Assembly (NCBI RefSeq): GCF_019602855.1
Contig: NZ_CP080766.1
Span: 1,426,001-1,490,000 of the forward strand
Source of the DNA: Cupriavidus pinatubonensis
GTDB taxonomy: Bacteria; Pseudomonadota; Gammaproteobacteria; Burkholderiales; Burkholderiaceae
Direction of reading: 5' to 3'
DNA: 64,000 nucleotides
Shown here: positions 23,849-54,608 of the stretch, in pieces
Position numbering within the stretch: position 1 is the first letter of the stretch
Layout: every line of letters begins with the position of its first letter
Notes under the pieces: generated by a model
Told to the model about the DNA's origin: nothing
The model's database searches: none
The model's input: only the letters and a program-made list of their open reading frames with translations
Program-made: the position numbers and the translations under genes

Positions 23849-25219
23849 TTACGCCGGTTCAGCCTCGCTGTCGGCAATCTGATACTTGCGCATCTTCTCC
23901 CACAGCACCTTGCGGCTAATGCCCAGGCTGGCAGCCGTATCCTGACGGCGCCAGCCGTTGGCGTCGAGCGCGGCCAGGATACGGCGGCGCTCATCCGCGT
24001 CGTTGCGCCAGTCGGCATGGCGGTCGCTGCCATCGAACGCGCCCGGGTGCAGCATGCTGAAAAGCGGGCGGATTCGCTCAGGGTCCCAGTCTCCGGCTTG
24101 CCGGACGGCAATGCCCATGCGCTCGGCCAGGTTCCGAAGCTCGCGCACATTACCGGCAAAGTAAGCCGTGCCGACGGCGCCCTTGATCCAGTCCGGCATC
24201 GGCGGCAGGGCGTCCAGCGCCGCCGCCCCCATCATGTGCCGCAGGAAGGCGGTCAGCAGCGCCACCTTGTCGGCCATGCCGCGCTCTTCCAGGCTCGGAA
24301 TACGCATCTCGATCACCGCCAGGCGGAAGAACAGGTCAGCGCGAAAACGCCCCTGCCGTACCGCATCGCGCAGATCCTTGTTGGTCGCGGCAACCAGGCG
24401 GAAATCGAGCTTTACGTTCATGGTCGAGCCCAGCCGTGTCACCACGTTCTCTTCGAGCACGCGCAGCAGCTTGACCTGCTGGAACAAGGGCAGGTCGCCG
24501 ATCTCGTCCAGGAACAGCGTGCCGCCGTTGGCCTGTTCGAAGAAGCCGCGGTGCGCGAACGATGCGCCGGTGAACGCGCCCTTGGCGTGGCCGAAGAATT
24601 GTGACTCGAACAACCCGTCCGGTATCGCGCCGCAGTTCACGGGCACGAACGGGCCCTTGCCATATGTCTTGTTGCGCTCGTGGAACAGTTGCGCAATGCG
24701 CTCTTTGCCGGCCCCGGTCTCGCCGTACAGCAGCACATTGCTGCCGAAGTCCGCGAACGTATCCACCTGCGACAGCAGTCGCTGCATGGCGGGCGAACCT
24801 GCTACCAGTTCGGCGTGCCGGTCGCCGTGGTCGTCTGTCGCCATCATCTGCGGCAACAGCTTGCCGATCTGGTTGCGCAGGTCGGCGCCGGTAAAGTCAT
24901 CGGGCAGGATGTGGGCGTATTCGGGCGGGAAGCGTCCGGGATCCGACTCGCGACCCGGTGCGGCGACCCAGATCACCGGCATGCCATGCGCGGCTTCCCA
25001 GTCCAGCGCGGTGAAGCGTGCCGCGCCGATCACCGAGACGCTGATCACCGCCAGGCACGGTCTGGTGCGGGCTCCTTCGGGCAGGGCTTCCAGCGCCCCC
25101 GCGCGGATCACTTCCACACCGAGCGGCGTCAGGAAACGCGTCACGCGGTCGGCAATCTCGTACTTGCCTTCCCAGACGTAGACTTCGAGGTTTTCGTAGG
25201 CCCAGCGGTCGGTTTTCAT
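23849..25219 (-). CDS. Sigma-54-dependent transcriptional activator of the tad locus
   Basis: A 456-residue protein. The N-terminal ~130 residues look like a degenerate receiver-type domain without an obvious phospho-acceptor pattern. The AAA+ domain follows: Walker A GETGAGKE, the sigma-54 contact motif GAFTGA, Walker [14 protein letters not shown] and the sensor [11 protein letters not shown] Fis-type helix-turn-helix closes the protein ([36 protein letters not shown]). It ends 12 bases from the cytochrome stop (convergent) and starts 38 bases after TadG, in line with the pilus genes. It probably activates a sigma-54 promoter of the pilus or another surface locus. Confidence 0.9.
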
Positions 25220-48387: not shown

Positions 48388-48900
48388 TCAGGGGAACGCC
48401 GGCACGGCCGGATCCAAGCCCGCAAACGCGGCTTCCGGATGGGCCTTCTGCAGCATCATTTCGATTTCCTCGACACGTCCGCGCGGCACATCGACCATCA
48501 GCAGGATCTTGCCGGCTTCGATGTCCTTCTCGAACGCGCGCAGGCGGCTGTTGGGCGCCGAACTGCCGATCATGCTCGAAGCCCACGCACCAAATACGGC
48601 GCCGAGCACGGCCAGCACGCCGACCAGGCCCCACTGCGGGGTGTCGCTGACGATCGGGAACATGGCCACTACCGCGCCGGCCACCACGCCCACGCCGCCA
48701 CCGACCATCAGGCCCATTTCAGCGGCATGGATGATATCGGACGTCTGGAACAGGTTGGCTTCGTGCAGGCCCGTCATATCAGAACCGTCGCGCGCCACGA
48801 AATGGATATGACTGTTCTCCACACGGGCCAGCAGGAGGTCGTCCATGGTGCGTCGGGCACTGACCAGATCGGGCAATAACCAGAAGATGCGTTTGCGCAT
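48388..48900 (-). CDS. Membrane protein with a glycine-rich double helix, DUF1269-like
   Basis: A 170-residue protein. A soluble N-terminal half (RKRIFWLLPDLVSARRTMDDLLLARVENSHIHFVARDG) is followed by two Gly-rich transmembrane helices (GLMVGGGVGVVAGAVVAMFPI, WGLVGVLAVLGAVFGAWASSMIG, about 64-110) and a soluble C-terminal part with GKILLMVDVPRGRVEEIEMMLQKAHPEA. This layout is like DUF1269-type inner-membrane proteins. It lies downstream of the outer-membrane barrel gene on the same strand after 166 bases and may or may not belong to that operon. Confidence 0.7.
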   Translation of the reverse strand: MRKRIFWLLPDLVSARRTMDDLLLARVENSHIHFVARDGSDMTGLHEANLFQTSDIIHAAEMGLMVGGGVGVVAGAVVAMFPIVSDTPQWGLVGVLAVLGAVFGAWASSMIGSSAPNSRLRAFEKDIEAGKILLMVDVPRGRVEEIEMMLQKAHPEAAFAGLDPAVPAFP

Positions 48901-49066: not shown

Positions 49067-50503
49067 TCAGAATGTGATCGGCAGACGCACATTGACCTGC
49101 AGGTCGGGCGTATCGCGCGTGAGACCGGCACCCACCGACAGGTTCAGCGTGTAGCGGTTGTTGAAGCGATACGAGTAACCCACCAGCAGCGTGCCCTGCG
49201 TCACGCGCACCGAGCCCGGCACCGTCTGCCCGTTCTGCTTGGTCGGCCAGATGATGGCCTGGTCGTAGCCAATCGAGAACGACGCATGCTCGTTGAGCGC
49301 AAGGCCCATGCCGAAGCTGAACTCGAAGATGTCCCCCGGGGCGATCTTGCCCAGGTCCTCCTTCTCGCCATTGAGCACGGTGCGGCTGACGTTGTCACGA
49401 GCAAAGTTGTGCAGATAGCTGAAGGTGCCGAAGAAAACTGCCGGGTCGGTCGGCAGCAGCCACGTAATGCCGGGTTGCAGGGCCTGGAAGCCCGTACCGG
49501 TGGGCAAGCCCAGTGGCAGGCCGGTACCCGTTGCATTGCCGACGCAGCGCGTCACGCAGTCGGTCACAACTTCGAACGGATCCTTGCCGGTGTTGGATTT
49601 GTATCGCAACCAGCCGATGAAGTACGGCATCTTTTCTGTGCCGTAGTTGAGCTGGTACCGCAGCGTGGCTTCCACATCCCCAATGCCGCTGCCGCTGGCG
49701 TTGAACACGTTGTCGACTGCCGTGCCCGTGAATATCTCGCGGCTGACGGTAGAACCCGAGCTGTGCACGTATGGCACCTTGGCTTCGATCTCCAGGCGCT
49801 TGGTGATGCCGTAGCGCAGCGCGACTGAAGCGAGGTACGTGGTCGTCTTGACCTCGCGCACGTCGACCAGGCCGATCAGGATGGCAGGAATCACCGTGTA
49901 CCCAACCAGCGCAACACGGTTGTTGGACGAATAGCCGTACTGGAAGCCGGGCTCGACCACGAGCTTGCCCTCGCCGGTCAGCACGCCAGGCTGGTCGGTA
50001 ATCGGCGCGATTTCTGGTGGACGAGTGTCGCGTTCGGGCGGGCGGCCAACGGGTTCGTCGGCGGCCACTGTTTGCTGGTCGGTCGATTCACCCTGCTGTG
50101 GCTGTCCCGACTGAGGCTGGGCCACCATTTGCGGCGGCTGCTGCGGATTTGCCACGGCGTTTGGCACGCCTTGCGTGGCACTGGAGGCCGCCGCCGCCGC
50201 GGCCGCGTTGGTAGCGTTGTCCGAGGGCGTCACGCCTGGACCGGCCCCGCCGCGCTTTCTCGCCAGGACATCGTTGCCGATGACACTGCGCAATTCCTTG
50301 ATGACGGCCTCCTGCTCGGCCAGCGCCCGCTTCATCGCTTCCAGTTGGCCCTGCTGATCGGCCAACTGGCTTTGCAGGGCTTCCATCCCCGTGGCAGGCG
50401 ATGGCCCGGAGTCCGGGGAAGTCTGTGCGTTCGCCAGCCCCCCAAGCAATAGCAACGTCGAGCATCCGGCGTTCCGGATGCCCTGCATCGACCGCTTCTT
50501 CAT
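49067..50503 (-). CDS. Outer-membrane barrel with N-terminal coiled coil, FapF-like candidate
   Basis: A 478-residue protein with a signal peptide (GLANAQTSP, about 27). Residues 40-77 form a heptad-like coiled coil (ALQSQLADQQGQLEAMKRALAEQEAVIKELR). A RKRGG (82-86) and a long Gln/Pro/Ala-rich linker (about 87-175) follow. The C-terminal ~300 residues are a beta-barrel of the porin/'transporter' type (GEGKLVVEPGFQYGYSSNNRVALVG ... YSYRFNNRYTLNLSVGAGLTRDTPDL... ITF, ending Phe). A coiled coil followed by a barrel is the plan of FapF, the amyloid export channel of Pseudomonas. GGGGGAGG precedes the start. The upstream genes encode secreted proteins and a C39 peptidase, supporting an export-channel role; this is inference from architecture. 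Confidence 0.8.
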   Translation of the reverse strand: MKKRSMQGIRNAGCSTLLLLGGLANAQTSPDSGPSPATGMEALQSQLADQQGQLEAMKRALAEQEAVIKELRSVIGNDVLARKRGGAGPGVTPSDNATNAAAAAAASSATQGVPNAVANPQQPPQMVAQPQSGQPQQGESTDQQTVAADEPVGRPPERDTRPPEIAPITDQPGVLTGEGKLVVEPGFQYGYSSNNRVALVGYTVIPAILIGLVDVREVKTTTYLASVALRYGITKRLEIEAKVPYVHSSGSTVSREIFTGTAVDNVFNASGSGIGDVEATLRYQLNYGTEKMPYFIGWLRYKSNTGKDPFEVVTDCVTRCVGNATGTGLPLGLPTGTGFQALQPGITWLLPTDPAVFFGTFSYLHNFARDNVSRTVLNGEKEDLGKIAPGDIFEFSFGMGLALNEHASFSIGYDQAIIWPTKQNGQTVPGSVRVTQGTLLVGYSYRFNNRYTLNLSVGAGLTRDTPDLQVNVRLPITF

Positions 50504-50581
50504 TTCGTCTACCCTCCCCCGGGACGGCGGACTGATTATCCAGGAGTCCGCTACCTGTACTGCGCTATGCCTTCGCTACGA

Positions 50582-51505
50582 CTACCTCATGCTGGCGGCC
50601 CGCATCAACGCGCTGTTCAGCGCTGTGTTGGCCAACTGTGACCGGAATGCCTGGAGTGTATTCACGCTGGCGTCGATTGTCATCAGGCTCCGGATGCTCT
50701 GGTTGTTCAAAGAGTTCTGGATCACGGTTGCCGGCGAGCCTGCCAGCGCCCCTATGTTCGCCACATTGCCCGCGCCATTCTGGATAATGGTCAGGGCCCC
50801 ATTGGTAATGACCTGACCGGTCCCGGTGGCAATGGTCGTTATCGGCGCGCCCGTCGTTGCGGAGCTTGCGCCCGCACTGCCTGCCGCCGTGCTCGAGGCT
50901 CCTGCCGCGCTCGCCGTCGTCGCGGCGCCAGTGCCACCGCTGCTGCCGGCATTGCTGGCACTACCGCCCTGCGATCCGGCCGTGGAACCCGCCGTGGCGG
51001 GATTGCCGGCTAACGCACTGTTGACAGTTGCCTGGGTCGCGCTCACGATCGACGGCCCAAGCGTGGAGGCCAGCCGGGCGGCCTGGTCAGTCGTAATCCT
51101 TCCCACATCGGGAATATTAAGGGTGGTCGCCACAACCAGGGCACCGTTGATATACACGGCGCGTTCGATTCCGAACGAAACTTGCAGGCCGCCGGCATCG
51201 AAACCGCCCCGCATTTCTTCCAGGCGCTCATGGGCGACGGGCTTCCAACCCGCCATGTCGCCACGAGCAGCCGAAGGCGCCAAACCCGCCAAAGCAGGGC
51301 TTTCCACCGGCGTATCTTCGGTAGCCAGCACAGCCTGCGCCGGCAATACGCCTGCATCAAATACATCCGGCAAGGATTGTTCAGCCGCATGCACGGTACC
51401 CGTACATGCCATGCCGGCCCCGACCAGCAACATGGCAGTGGCCTGCCCTGCCATGCCGGATCGCCGCACGGTCAGGCCAGTGAATGAATCAGGTTGTTGG
51501 AGCAT
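50582..51505 (-). CDS. Secreted protein with RGG-type leader motif and 'IQN' repeats (FapE-like candidate)
   Basis: A 307-residue protein. The N-terminus has a long signal-like segment (ATAMLLVGAGMACTGTVHA, ends near 40). At 94-101, LEEMRGG carries L(-7), M(-4), G(-2), G(-1), the shape of a double-glycine C39 processing site, followed by FDAGGLQVSFGIERAVYINGALVVATTLN. A Gly/Ala/Ser low-complexity segment (about 170-218) leads to a conserved-looking C-terminal part: GALTIIQNGAGNVANI..ATVIQNSLNNQSIRSLMTIDASVN. IQN also occurs in the small neighbour protein. GAGGAA overlaps the C39 peptidase stop. Likely an exported amyloid-related accessory; no named family is certain. Confidence 0.72.
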   Translation of the reverse strand: MLQQPDSFTGLTVRRSGMAGQATAMLLVGAGMACTGTVHAAEQSLPDVFDAGVLPAQAVLATEDTPVESPALAGLAPSAARGDMAGWKPVAHERLEEMRGGFDAGGLQVSFGIERAVYINGALVVATTLNIPDVGRITTDQAARLASTLGPSIVSATQATVNSALAGNPATAGSTAGSQGGSASNAGSSGGTGAATTASAAGASSTAAGSAGASSATTGAPITTIATGTGQVITNGALTIIQNGAGNVANIGALAGSPATVIQNSLNNQSIRSLMTIDASVNTLQAFRSQLANTALNSALMRAASMR

Positions 51506-51515
51506 GATGTGTTCC

Positions 51516-52214
51516 TCAGAAATCGCCAGCGCCATGCTTTGGCATGACGGTGAAGAACAAGCTGTCCCGGCTAACTCCCATCCAGTAAGGACCCATCGGC
51601 GCGACACGCCAGTCAGCCGCAAGGTTGAACCGCGCCCGCTCGGTGCGGTTATGGATGACGAAAAGCAACTGGCTCTCCCAGATGCTTTCAAAATGCTCTC
51701 GGGAAATGGATCGCGTGCCGCGCGCAGGATCTCCGATCAGCACGCGGTCCCCCTTGACCCCTTTGACAACCACGAAATGGTGGTAGCCCCCTTCTGAGAT
51801 CAGCACGATCGCGGGAATCTGTGTTTCTTCGAGCTTGGACAGCGGCAACTCATAGCCATCCGCCAGGAAGCCCCGCGACTCCAGAAAGCGCTTCATGTCC
51901 AGCAAGGAAAAGCCCTCTTGCCGAATCTTGTTCTGATCGCCGTTGACGAACATGTTGGCAAATGCCAACTCTTCGCTCACGGGATCGCCGTATTGGTAGG
52001 TCAGCAGGGTCGCCACAGCGGCCGACCCGCAACTGAAATCGTATTGCTGCCGGACCGTCGTCTTGAACCTTGCCTCGCGCAGGCTGGTTACCGGCACGTT
52101 GTAGGCTTCGCCAACCGGCCCGTATAGCGTCATCCGGTCTGCCATCGCGGGCGACATCCCGCCCAAGGCCAGCAGAAACGGTATGGTCCCCAGCACCCGT
52201 CGGAAGATCGTCAT
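51516..52214 (-). CDS. Periplasmic C39-family cysteine peptidase (FapD-like)
   Basis: A 232-residue protein with a signal peptide (LALGGMSPAMADRM). The C39 catalytic Cys is in QQYDFSCGSAAVATLL (Cys 62, with a Gln before it for the oxyanion hole). The His is in GGYHHFVVVKGVKG (145/146) and the Asp in LIGDPARG (162). No ABC or membrane domain is present, unlike bacteriocin exporters, so it works as a free periplasmic protease like FapD. The start overlaps the upstream stop by one base (TGATG); GTG at 52217 is an alternative start. The two neighbours with a double-glycine-like motif are plausible substrates. Confidence 0.85.
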   Translation of the reverse strand: MTIFRRVLGTIPFLLALGGMSPAMADRMTLYGPVGEAYNVPVTSLREARFKTTVRQQYDFSCGSAAVATLLTYQYGDPVSEELAFANMFVNGDQNKIRQEGFSLLDMKRFLESRGFLADGYELPLSKLEETQIPAIVLISEGGYHHFVVVKGVKGDRVLIGDPARGTRSISREHFESIWESQLLFVIHNRTERARFNLAADWRVAPMGPYWMGVSRDSLFFTVMPKHGAGDF

Positions 52215-52663
52215 CACTTGAACTGGACGTTGATGATGGTCGCGTTCTGGATCAGCACGCTATTGCCGCTGTTCTGGATAGCGGTCGGCAAGCCTGCCGC
52301 ATTGGCAAATGCGCCGTCGGAGATGAGATTGGTGCCGGTGATCGGGTTGACCACGGCGTTGTCGGCAACCGTGCCGTGCAGCCGCATGTCGTTCACAACC
52401 ACTTCGGTGCCGCCGCGCACGCCATCAAGTTTGTCGCTCGCGACTGCCGCTACCGCCGAGCCGAACGGATTGCGTTGGCCGCTTGCACTCAAGTCCGTCT
52501 TTGCGACGGCCTCGGAGCCCATACCACTTCCAATTGCGCCTGCCCCGCTGGCCTGCGTGGCCGCGGAGGCAGCGTCCGCCACAGGATCCGCCTGGGCTTG
52601 AGCGAAGGGCCAAGCCAGAAGTGCAGTCGTCAGAACGGTGACTGCGGAGCGAATCGGTCGCAT
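52214..52663 (-). CDS. Small secreted protein with RGG motif and C-terminal 'IQN' motifs
   Basis: A 149-residue protein with a signal peptide (FAQAQADP, about 26). At 79-85, LDGVRGG has L(-7), V(-4), G(-2), G(-1), the same shape as in the 50582 protein, followed by TEVVVNDMRLHGTVADNAVVNPITGTNLISDGAFANAAGLP. The C-terminus ends AIQNSGNSVLIQNATIINVQFK, with two IQN units. It could be a fibre nucleator or chaperone. It is translationally coupled to the C39 peptidase gene. AAGGAG precedes the start. No family name is certain. Confidence 0.7.
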   Translation of the reverse strand: MRPIRSAVTVLTTALLAWPFAQAQADPVADAASAATQASGAGAIGSGMGSEAVAKTDLSASGQRNPFGSAVAAVASDKLDGVRGGTEVVVNDMRLHGTVADNAVVNPITGTNLISDGAFANAAGLPTAIQNSGNSVLIQNATIINVQFK

Positions 52664-52857
52664 GGTGCGTCTCCTTGTTGCTCGCTGTGGTCCGGCCCCA
52701 TCCGGCCGGTAGCGGCGATACTCCCAGGCTGACAAGCCAGGGGACTGGCATCATTCCGGAACCTTCCCCGGCGATACCAGCTCCTGGCCGCGTGAAGCTT
52801 TCCATCGGTGTGCCCGGCCTGCCAAGATCACAGCCGGCCGGGCGTTCCACTCAGACT

Positions 52858-54345
52858 TCAGTGGCCGACATTCAGGTTAGCCTGCACGTTGACGCTGTGC
52901 TGCACCAGGGACGCCGCACCGTTGTTCTGCGTGGCGATCATGATGCCGGCCGCAGTCTGACCAACGCTGGTCATGACGTTGGACATGGCGAACGAACCTG
53001 CGCTGACGGCGTTATAGCCGCCAGAGCCGCCGGCGCCGCCGACTGCACCGTTGCCGACGCCGCCAGTACCACCGGCACCTGCGCCGCCAGCACCGCCTGC
53101 GCCGCCTGCAGCGCCCACCGCACCGTTACCGGCCGTGGAGCTACCGTTGCTGGCAGAACTCGTCGCGCTGCCGTTCGTCGCAGAACCGCCTGCGCCACCG
53201 GTACCGCCAACGCTGGCCTGCGTGCCGCCTGCGCCGCCCGTGCCCGTGGTCGCGCCCGTCGTCGCCGTCGCGGTCGCCGTGCCACCAGCACCGCCAGCGC
53301 CGCCCGTGCCGCTGCCGGCACCGCCGGTCGCTGCACCAGCCGTCGAGGTTCCGGCGCCGCCGGCACCACCACCAGCCGTGGCTGCACCGCCCGTGCCCGA
53401 GCCAGCACCAGCCGTACCGCTGGCCGTCGCCGCACCGCCCGCGCCGCCTGCGCCAGCGCTATCGTTACCAGCGCCATTCGCCGAGGTGGCTCCGCCAGCC
53501 GAACCTGCCAGGCCGCCGAATCCAGCGCTCGCGCCAAGGGCGCTGCCGCCACGGCTGAAGGCCCCACCACCACCGCCACCAGCACCAAGCGAAGCGCTCA
53601 GAGCACCGCCGCCACGGCCAGACGCGTCACCACCGCTACCACCGCGGGTGCCCGCTGCGCTGAGCGCGCCGCCGCCCGTAGCCCGGCCGTTGCCGCCGTC
53701 GCCTGCCCAACCCACTGCACGGCCGCCATTGCCGCCATCACCAGCCTGCGCGCCGTAGTTGGTCGCGCTGCCGTTGGTGGCGCTGCCGTTGGTCGCCGTA
53801 CCGCCTGCGCCGCCTGCACCGCCCGCGCCGCCTGCGCCGCCGACCGCGCCGCTGCCATTACCACCCGTACCGCCATAGCCATTGCCACCAGTGCCGCCCG
53901 ACGCCTGGGCGTTACCGCTGTTGGAGGCGTAGTTGCCAACAGGCGCAATGCTGTTGCTGGTCACATAGCCGTTCAGCTTGCTGACCGCCACCGCCTTGCT
54001 GTGATTGAACGAGTTGGTCAGGTTGGCGACCGCGGTGCCGCCATTGGCTGCTGCAGCGTTGCCATATCCGCCCAATTCTTGATCAGCGCGGGTGATGGTC
54101 CGGGTCGACGTCCTTGTGGAGGTGCTCGTCCGGGTCGATGTCCTGGTGTCAGTGGCAGTGTTGCCGCTGACATTGAGCGAGCGTGAATTCTCATTCGCCT
54201 GGGCCCCCCCGCCGCCCTGCGTCGAGGTGGCGGTGGCAGTCTGCGTGTTGGTCGTGCCACTATCGTCGTTGTTGTTTGTCGGATTTGCCCATGCCGGCCC
54301 TGCGAACGCGAGGGCGACGGCAGACGCAAGAAGTGTCTTTTTCAT
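52858..54345 (-). CDS. Secreted Gly/Ala-rich fibre-like protein (FapC-like candidate)
   Basis: A 495-residue protein without Cys. It has a signal peptide (1-21), a Thr/Ser/Arg-rich stretch with TRTSTSTRTSTRT (68-82), and a 'folded-looking' part (LGGYGNAAAANGGTAVANLTNSFNHSKAVAVSKLNGYVTSNSIAPVG, about 91-137). From about 149 to 443 there is a Gly/Ala/Ser/Thr-rich repetitive region with many GGAGGAGG and TNGSA-type units. A C-terminal domain (about 444-495) is rich in Asn/Gln/Val: VGQTAAG...ATQNNGAASL, VQHSVNVQANLNV. The last part resembles the repeat motifs of FapB/FapC amyloid. GGGAGC precedes the start. It is first in the operon and presumably the major exported fibre. Confidence 0.75.
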   Translation of the reverse strand: MKKTLLASAVALAFAGPAWANPTNNNDDSGTTNTQTATATSTQGGGGAQANENSRSLNVSGNTATDTRTSTRTSTSTRTSTRTITRADQELGGYGNAAAANGGTAVANLTNSFNHSKAVAVSKLNGYVTSNSIAPVGNYASNSGNAQASGGTGGNGYGGTGGNGSGAVGGAGGAGGAGGAGGTATNGSATNGSATNYGAQAGDGGNGGRAVGWAGDGGNGRATGGGALSAAGTRGGSGGDASGRGGGALSASLGAGGGGGGAFSRGGSALGASAGFGGLAGSAGGATSANGAGNDSAGAGGAGGAATASGTAGAGSGTGGAATAGGGAGGAGTSTAGAATGGAGSGTGGAGGAGGTATATATTGATTGTGGAGGTQASVGGTGGAGGSATNGSATSSASNGSSTAGNGAVGAAGGAGGAGGAGAGGTGGVGNGAVGGAGGSGGYNAVSAGSFAMSNVMTSVGQTAAGIMIATQNNGAASLVQHSVNVQANLNVGH

Positions 54346-54455
54346 ACGATGCTCCCAGGAGAATTTCACACAGCGGCTCAGCCTCCGCCCAACGCTCTGC
54401 GAAACGATGGCTGGAGGTTCAGGTCCGGCACCGTGCCAAACCAGACCCCCTCTGC

Positions 54456-54470
54456 GCATAATCGGTGCCA
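54456..54470 (-). promoter_or_regulatory. Predicted sigma-54 (-24/-12) promoter for the amyloid-like operon
   Basis: The minus strand reads TGGCACCGATTATGC. TGGCAC is a perfect -24 element, GC falls exactly 12 bases after GG, and TGC matches the -12. It lies about 110 bases upstream of the first gene. Confidence 0.6.
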
Positions 54471-54590
54471 GCTTCGTCACCCCAAACCGCGACCCCTTGC
54501 GGCATAAGGGCTTGGCAGACATTTCCCGGGAACTTTCGAATGCCGGGGGCAATCTCACCCCACCCTCGTCGCAGTGCATCACAAGCGACA

Positions 54591-54608
54591 TGTCACACCG
54601 CTGTGACA
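54591..54608. promoter_or_regulatory. Perfect palindrome, candidate enhancer (UAS)
   Basis: TGTCACACCGCTGTGACA has 7-base arms around CCGC. It is centred about 130 bases upstream of the predicted -24 element, a usual distance for sigma-54 enhancer sites. Confidence 0.55.

Follow-up and report, generated by a model that had tools for sequence, protein, structure and literature searches.

A row of five leftward genes in Cupriavidus pinatubonensis probably forms a Fap-type secretion operon with a cargo of its own, which would build a surface fibre. The genes occupy 49067-54345 of a 64,000-nucleotide stretch (positions 1,426,001 to 1,490,000 of contig NZ_CP080766.1, assembly GCF_019602855.1; called here the window), which belongs to a genome of 7.5 Mb in 4 contigs. 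From upstream to downstream, the open reading frames (ORFs) are glyR, for a predicted secreted Gly/Ala-rich cargo (52858..54345, minus strand as for all five, 495 aa); sm, for a small, predicted secreted protein in the FapB/FapC place (52214..52663, 149 aa); C39, for a FapD-like C39 cysteine peptidase (51516..52214, 232 aa); E, for a probable FapE homologue (50582..51505, 307 aa); and F, for a FapF-like outer-membrane exporter (49067..50503, 478 aa). The interpretation draws on the homology of the peptidase and the barrel to FapD and FapF, the probable homology of E to FapE, a cargo module common to glyR and sm, a leader motif, a recurrent promoter and the co-occurrence of an activator. A sequence-only reading of this DNA had described five such genes and proposed a divergent Fap-type locus. 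The ORFs and their related loci bear out the description, and the proposal holds as well, D and F being clear homologues, E a probable one and the regulation Fap-like. The wide distribution, the relic of a canonical fap locus, the sigma-54 promoter and the common double-glycine leader go beyond it.

Relatives were collected by a scan of one genome per species, which gave 529 stretches encoding a C39 relative. The analysis was carried out on the best 80 of these, all chosen via their C39, and the counts per 80 loci below refer to this set. E is present in 80 loci, sm in 79, F in 77 and glyR, with its C-terminal module, in 73; this gene grouping is therefore not due to chance, and the five genes are genuine and form a conserved operon. 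All 7 loci without glyR lie at a contig edge, their sequence beginning no more than 500 bases before sm or C39 on the upstream side. As for gene order, which the sequence-only reading had proposed to check in relatives, glyR-sm-C39-E-F stand on one strand in 50/80 loci; F is inverted downstream in 11, divergent upstream in another 11, and the remaining 8 are without one or more genes. In the window, sm and C39 overlap by 1 base, C39 and E are separated by 10 bases, E and F by 78, and glyR and sm by 194. The starts adopted are 54345 (glyR), 52663 (sm), 52214 (C39), 51505 (E) and 50503 (F), the latter retained for its signal-like N-terminus where the gene caller favoured a later start, 50386. 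Starts from this custom gene caller are heuristic (inside the barrel in 7 of the 84 barrel rows), and it overlooked many genes in GC-rich loci; presence counts were taken from all ORFs. Since BLAST similarity to the proteins of the window decided which members were taken, the conservation of motifs cannot be counted as independent of this choice. Directly downstream of the operon (48388-48900, minus strand) lies a small protein with a hydrophobic middle, as judged by eye, and weak matches below cut-off to domains of unknown function. In one Cupriavidus assembly (L105), C39 is split into two ORFs, by error or as a broken gene.

Homology to the Fap machinery is clearest for the peptidase and the barrel. 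The C39 protein matches Pfam PF03412 (E 7.6e-24) and shows, by eye, a signal-like N-terminus. Its nearest NCBIfam family is FapD (2.4e-42, 145 bits), followed by FilB (3.4e-37, 128 bits). The catalytic residues, Cys62, His146 and Asp162 in the window, are kept in 87/87, 86/87 and 86/87 sequences, respectively, and profile-profile comparison with FapD (hhalign) gave 100%, compared to 3% or less for column-shuffled controls. By these comparisons the C39 protease is a FapD homologue. In F, a Leu/Gln/Glu-rich stretch, coiled-coil-like by eye, is followed by a linker and a barrel; residues 165-477 align with the solved barrel of FapF (PDB 5o67; E 1.6e-28, phmmer against the PDB), the nearest NCBIfam family is FapF (3.2e-41, 142 bits), and hhalign against FapF gave 100% (4.9e-63; column-shuffled controls 3% or less). 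On the same kind of evidence, the barrel is a FapF homologue. A second barrel of the F type was seen apart from the operon in one Cupriavidus genome (G205:C31:74608-75681).

A quite different role for F, that of a porin for the uptake of phenol- or lipid-type compounds, standing among unrelated neighbours, was also considered. COG4313 hydrophobic-uptake channels have been compared with FapF (PMC6173800), and one of them imports polychlorophenols in C. necator (PMC9581022). Such a role is most improbable, given that the best PDB sequence match of F is FapF and that 77/80 fetched loci contain the barrel together with C39. A porin without export function, or a phenol or lipid pathway, had been named by the sequence-only reading as what would speak against it; neither is what the evidence shows.

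Conservation of E is more localized. hhalign aligned E with FapE at 94% (1.3e-7; shuffled controls 3% or less) over 34 columns around the leader and an SFGI motif, and sm with E at 97%. The E profile also matches one of the 15 canonical loci tested (L181, E 0.0024). E is probably a diverged FapE homologue, the resemblance being confined to the N-terminal region. E contains IQN motifs; its AlphaFold model has a mean predicted local distance difference test score (pLDDT) of 64 and a predicted template modelling score of 0.43, the more confident parts being residues 109-167 and 223-305.

A precise motif suggests where C39 may cut. L-x-x-x-R-G-G is found in 83/86 sm sequences (shuffled 1.2%) and in 87/87 E sequences (shuffled 2.6%); in the window it reads LDGVRGG in sm (residues 79-85, 52409..52429, minus strand) and LEEMRGG in E (residues 95-101, 51203..51223, minus strand). 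Double-glycine leaders carry hydrophobic residues at -7 and -4 and Gly-Gly at -2 and -1. The spacing in sm and E fits this rule; the -4 residue is Met or Leu in 69/87 E sequences and His in 16 of the 83 sm sequences. We consider it likely that RGG is the C39 cleavage site in both proteins. In F, LARKRGG stands between the coil-like part and the barrel (residues 80-86, 50246..50266, minus strand) and is a candidate C39 site, the pre-barrel motif L..xRG[GAST] occurring in only 48/84 relatives (shuffled 4%), 27 of them with a true RGG. Among the 36 F rows without it, 7 are start errors, and others are a Pseudoxanthomonas-type group (L.xARARG) and divergent F members. Canonical FapE carries the related motif [LM]-x-x-x-[RHT]-G-[RK]-[YF] in 16/16 sequences, with Glu at -8 in 14.

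The same two features, double-glycine leaders and a C39 peptidase, would also be expected of a bacteriocin- or microcin-like system, in which sm and E would be precursors and the product a short secreted peptide. Here, the C39 protein is a stand-alone peptidase of 232 aa with no transporter domains in Pfam, the presumed precursors have signal-like N-termini by our own score, the exporter is FapF-like and no sixth operon gene was found at the locus; this explanation is very improbable.

A leader in E, at the place that corresponds to the FapE motif, a second one in sm and a similar motif in 48/84 barrel linkers name exact peptides for the question of what FapD cuts; canonical FapE retains the motif in a degenerate form. 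The active cysteine of FapD is required for FapC secretion, and its target was called unclear in 2017 (Rouse et al., PMC5557850). In that study FapE alone was without mass spectrometry peptides in its first ~70 residues, and GG/GA motifs precede the FapF barrel. In canonical FapE the motif ends at residue 40-68 in 12/16 sequences, numbered from our own heuristic starts, somewhat before that ~70-residue limit. In a 2025 review, FapE and FapF are named as the proteins that FapD 'is thought to process' (PMC12822426). Our sequences agree with FapE/FapF processing and add sm as a candidate substrate.

The cargo side is where the operon departs from Fap. GlyR contains 29.9% Gly and 20.6% Ala. It consists of a signal-like N-terminus, a Ser/Thr/Asn stretch, a conserved N-terminal module (residues 97-146, 53908..54057; alignment of 18 selected relatives), a 300-residue linker with 43% Gly (53008..53907) and a conserved C-terminal module QN.G..LVQ.SVNVQAN (residues 447-495, 52861..53007), all on the minus strand. 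The latter resembles the C-terminus of sm (ending in AIQNSGNSVLIQNATIINVQFK), with an hhalign value of 87%. One C-terminal module is common to both proteins and may be a remote Fap repeat. At E <=1, glyR, sm and E have no match in Pfam or NCBIfam. In seven Paraburkholderia loci (L092, L093, L094, L098, L100, L103, L110), two ORFs per locus carry the C-terminal module.

In all, 35 pairwise profile comparisons were made (26 + 9), so that single E-values near 1e-5 are not decisive. Profile-profile comparison of sm with FapB gave 21% before divergent members were added. When they were added, the last 45 residues of sm reached 80% against FapB and 68% against pooled Fap repeats (77 rows, 66 distinct). 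More generally, the sm end and the pooled profiles gave 54-80% against FapB or pooled Fap repeats, with shuffled controls at 5.5% or less. The glyR module on its own gave 0.7%, and the pooled divergent profile, a mixture of 6 cargo and 4 sm tails, 1.5% against whole FapC. Conversely, profiles of sm and of the glyR module matched none of the 15 canonical loci tested. Profile-profile comparison gave no match by which the Gly-rich C-terminus would be a direct homologue of FapC or FapB, and the relation was left as weak; on these figures, the cargo module and Fap repeats could have a common ancestor. In the profile search against Fap families suggested with the sequence-only reading, FapD and FapF were matched and FapC was not.

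The Gly residues of the cargo recur with a period of three (Z 3.4-5.0 in five of the seven proteins tested, 1.9 in the other two), which would suit polyglycine-II and disorder alike. The same export route could serve a non-amyloid product, the Gly-rich linker forming an elastic coat or adhesin of polyglycine-II or disordered structure with the C-terminal module as its anchor, an explanation that overlaps with ours. The 43% Gly, its period and the lack of any FapC profile match in the 80 loci favour it. Divergent relatives, however, keep the C-terminal module without the Gly-rich linker, so that this linker is not a core feature: L186, L187 and L189 have the same plan with a cargo that is not Gly-rich (6-10% Gly, as in five of six cargo proteins), that of L190 being Gly-rich (29%). 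The Q/N-rich ends, in addition, weakly resemble Fap repeats (68-80% for sm, 0.7% for glyR). We regard the non-amyloid coat as a possible but less likely outcome, and a cross-beta fibre as slightly favoured; secretion of the glyR cargo by F is, on its own, very likely. In L187, the cargo-sm-C39-E set is present as a tandem copy and the cargo is Asn/Asp/Ser-rich.

Regulation appears to be of the Fap kind. A sigma-54 (-24/-12) promoter-like site, TGGCACCGATTATGCG, lies at 54455..54470 (minus strand), 109 nt from the glyR ATG. Sites of this type were found 120-132 nt upstream (first base to start codon) in 23 of 24 loci (L064-L082, L084-L087, L101), the other being L064, at 71 given the chosen start. 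The pattern TGGCAY-N5-WTGC occurs within 200 nt upstream of glyR in 49/73 loci, the expectation per 200 nt, calculated from its frequency across the fetched loci, being 0.0055. Further upstream, the palindrome GACATGTC (54587..54594, no strand assigned) is present in 8/9 aligned Cupriavidus rows and may be an activator site.

The fap genes of P. fluorescens PF07 have an RpoN -24/-12 promoter and depend on BrfA, whose gene follows immediately downstream in the opposite orientation (PMC9207406); BrfA is an enhancer-binding protein that senses c-di-GMP (PMC13101488). The activator considered here has VpsR, Sigma54_activat and HTH_8 (Fis-type helix-turn-helix) domains. A gene like it lies within the sequence fetched for 33 loci, namely 15 of the best 80, 13 of the 15 canonical Fap loci and 5 further lineage members. 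The candidate in the window genome is G000:C1:1548893-1550311. It is intact in 38/40 Cupriavidus genomes, a set identical to that of the genomes with the barrel. We infer from this co-occurrence and the promoter type that the distant activator may control the operon; judged by sequence alone, the RpoN promoter and BrfA-type activator that characterize Fap are both present. An activator-like ORF within the window (~23849-25219, minus strand), 38% identical to the fap-type activator, is probably unrelated, the better candidate lying ~70 kb off.

The lineage is widely distributed. The best 80 loci come from Cupriavidus, Burkholderia, Paraburkholderia, Pararobbsia, Polaromonas, Rhodoferax, Duganella, Pseudoduganella, Pseudoxanthomonas, Lysobacter and Luteimonas, as well as from some records with less precise names, spanning four beta- and gammaproteobacterial families. 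In an even draw of the phylum, the sm profile matches 14 of 398 genomes. Cupriavidus is a genus used in biotechnology. In it, the F-type barrel is found in 38/40 genomes (119-144 bits), four of which also have a canonical FapF (G200, G219, G221, G613; 345-362 bits); neither barrel type was found in G210 (54% complete) and G222. The C. necator strains A5-1 and UYPR2.512 are among the carriers of the operon. The glyR C-terminal module occurs once each in 37/40 genomes, the extra miss being G611, where F starts at contig base 780. Surveys demanding several Fap profiles may therefore miss a beta/gammaproteobacterial fibre system present in 38/40 Cupriavidus genomes.

Canonical fap has left traces in this genus. 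Thirty-four Cupriavidus genomes retain the activator without canonical FapF. In the window genome, L227:6894-8816 (G000:C1:1548893-1550815) holds, beside the intact activator, a weak FapA match (33 residues, E 5.6e-4) and a fapC-like relic of 129 aa that lacks Fap repeats; the activator is 87% identical to one adjoining canonical fap in G221. This region likely represents the remains of canonical fap. The relic query matches 37/40 genomes, four of which are the canonical ones. The fapC-like short ORF was considered as an extra cargo and rejected: it is a relic, without Fap repeats in the four genomes examined and with in-frame stops in 11 of the 37. L190:11382-13345 shows, by eye, FapA-like and FapF-end-like fragments with a second activator, possibly a second case of canonical fap decay.

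These genomes also bear on whether the locus is merely an ordinary Fap system with fast-evolving subunits. D, E and F are homologous, the promoter and activator are of the same kind, and Fap subunits are known to diverge strongly (Dueholm 2013, PMC3792158). On the other hand, both systems reside together in 4/40 Cupriavidus genomes, canonical FapB and FapC profiles match 15/15 of their own source loci and not this lineage, and the C39 tree splits the sequences. This tree, built by a quick method from 55 rows, took in 24 of the best 80 loci, the window and six others. It groups 16 FapD (support 92, not starred), 4 Fil (100, starred) and a lineage core of 29 rows (97, starred), below which L186, L187, L189 and L190 attach on long branches (95, starred). 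The 31 named lineage members are not one side of any branch in the free tree, and a single clade is not rejected (p-AU 0.26). In this tree the lineage is separate from both Fap and Fil, and an ordinary Fap is unlikely.

More tentatively, the lineage could be a third branch of C39-gated outer-membrane secretion beside Fap and Fil. One periplasmic peptidase would recognize a single double-glycine code, L-x-x-x-R-G-G, in two proteins on the cargo side and, for many members, also in the pore, so that cutting would couple cargo maturation to pore opening. In most of Cupriavidus, the new Gly-rich fibre would have displaced canonical Fap and acquired its c-di-GMP-type activator.

Several results weigh against a Fap-type fibre operon. 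The bit scores fall below the NCBIfam cut-offs, 145 against 330 for FapD and 142 against 700 for FapF, canonical Cupriavidus FapF (345-362 bits) being also below the latter. Profiles from canonical loci matched, among the 80 loci, FapA in none (a profile from 4 rows, and FapA is often absent in known Fap), FapB in 2 (E ~0.007), FapC in none, FapD in 80, FapE in 4 and FapF in 77, compared to 11 of their 15 source loci for FapA and 15 each for FapB-FapF. The glyR C-terminus matched no Fap profile in profile-profile comparison with FapC and FapB. The parallel to fapC-D-E-F drawn by the sequence-only reading stands for D, E and F, in kind and in order, and not for the Gly-rich protein as FapC; two cargo genes lead, giving the order large, small, D, E, F. 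That reading had also seen no FapA or FapB match beyond the small protein, which holds for FapA; for sm, the resemblance to FapB appears only at 68-80% and after addition of divergent members. The C-terminal part of E reaches only 9.5% against that of FapE, Foldseek found nothing in the PDB for the E model at E <=0.001, and in the AlphaFold model of sm 120/149 residues have a pLDDT <70, that is, disordered. As for the leader, within classic Fap it speaks for FapE only, because the linker motif is found in 4/15 FapF (shuffled 13%) and RG[RKG] in 0/16 FapB and 1/16 FapC; a looser pattern in the first 140 residues of canonical FapE (15/16) has a shuffled rate of 19%. An RGG leader is found in 0/78 glyR, and a 2023 docking paper names FapC as FapD's target (PMC10638192). 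Finally, the evidence for the sigma-54 promoter is its recurrence, because single-locus scores are unremarkable against shuffles (3-30%), and in Cupriavidus the activator lies ~70 kb from the operon, whereas in other genera the two are adjacent.

Taken with these points, the Fap-type operon with its own cargo may be pictured as follows. RpoN and a c-di-GMP-type BrfA-like activator would turn the operon on, and Sec would carry all five proteins into the periplasm. The barrel protein would be a FapF-like outer-membrane pore, presumably trimeric, tethered by coiled coils. Periplasmic C39 would cut sm and E after L-x-x-x-R-G-G, and in many members probably the barrel linker too, thereby priming or opening the pore. 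E and sm would initiate assembly at the surface, where the exported Gly-rich protein could join a fibre, possibly amyloid, via the C-terminal module it has in common with sm.

In the open-access literature, we found no paper on this cargo or lineage, PMC9581022 dealing with COG4313 and FapF in general. FapD and FapF profiles match larger families (PMC3792158), and according to a 2018 review, fapD and fapF also stand next to each other in five further phyla (PMC6173800). Comparison with known systems places the operon closest to Fap. Curli (CsgA/B/G) also export an amyloid repeat cargo through an outer-membrane pore; the lineage has a C39 peptidase and a FapF-like barrel instead, and no Csg family was among the Pfam and NCBIfam matches. 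Fil (filA-F, a putative pilus system in NCBIfam), known from Acinetobacter, has in common with the lineage a C39 peptidase (FilB) and a FapF-like barrel (FilC), which are adjacent to each other in the four Fil-type loci fetched. Its cargo and accessory genes are different, as judged by eye, and it forms its own starred clade of 4, outside which the window protein falls, with 128 bits against a cut-off of 475 for FilB and, for F, 31 against 630 for FilC. Relative to Fap of Pseudomonas (fapABCDEF), the lineage differs by the lack of FapA, FapB and FapC at the profile level, bar two marginal FapB matches, by a Gly-rich cargo with N- and C-terminal modules, by an sm with its own RGG leader and by an E with Gly-Gly where FapE has Gly-Arg/Lys; it is a separate group in the C39 tree and shares 4/40 Cupriavidus genomes with canonical Fap. 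Common to both are FapD-like C39, FapE-like and FapF-like proteins in the same order, a repeat-like, predicted secreted cargo, a sigma-54 promoter and a BrfA-type activator, the last two known here from sequence.

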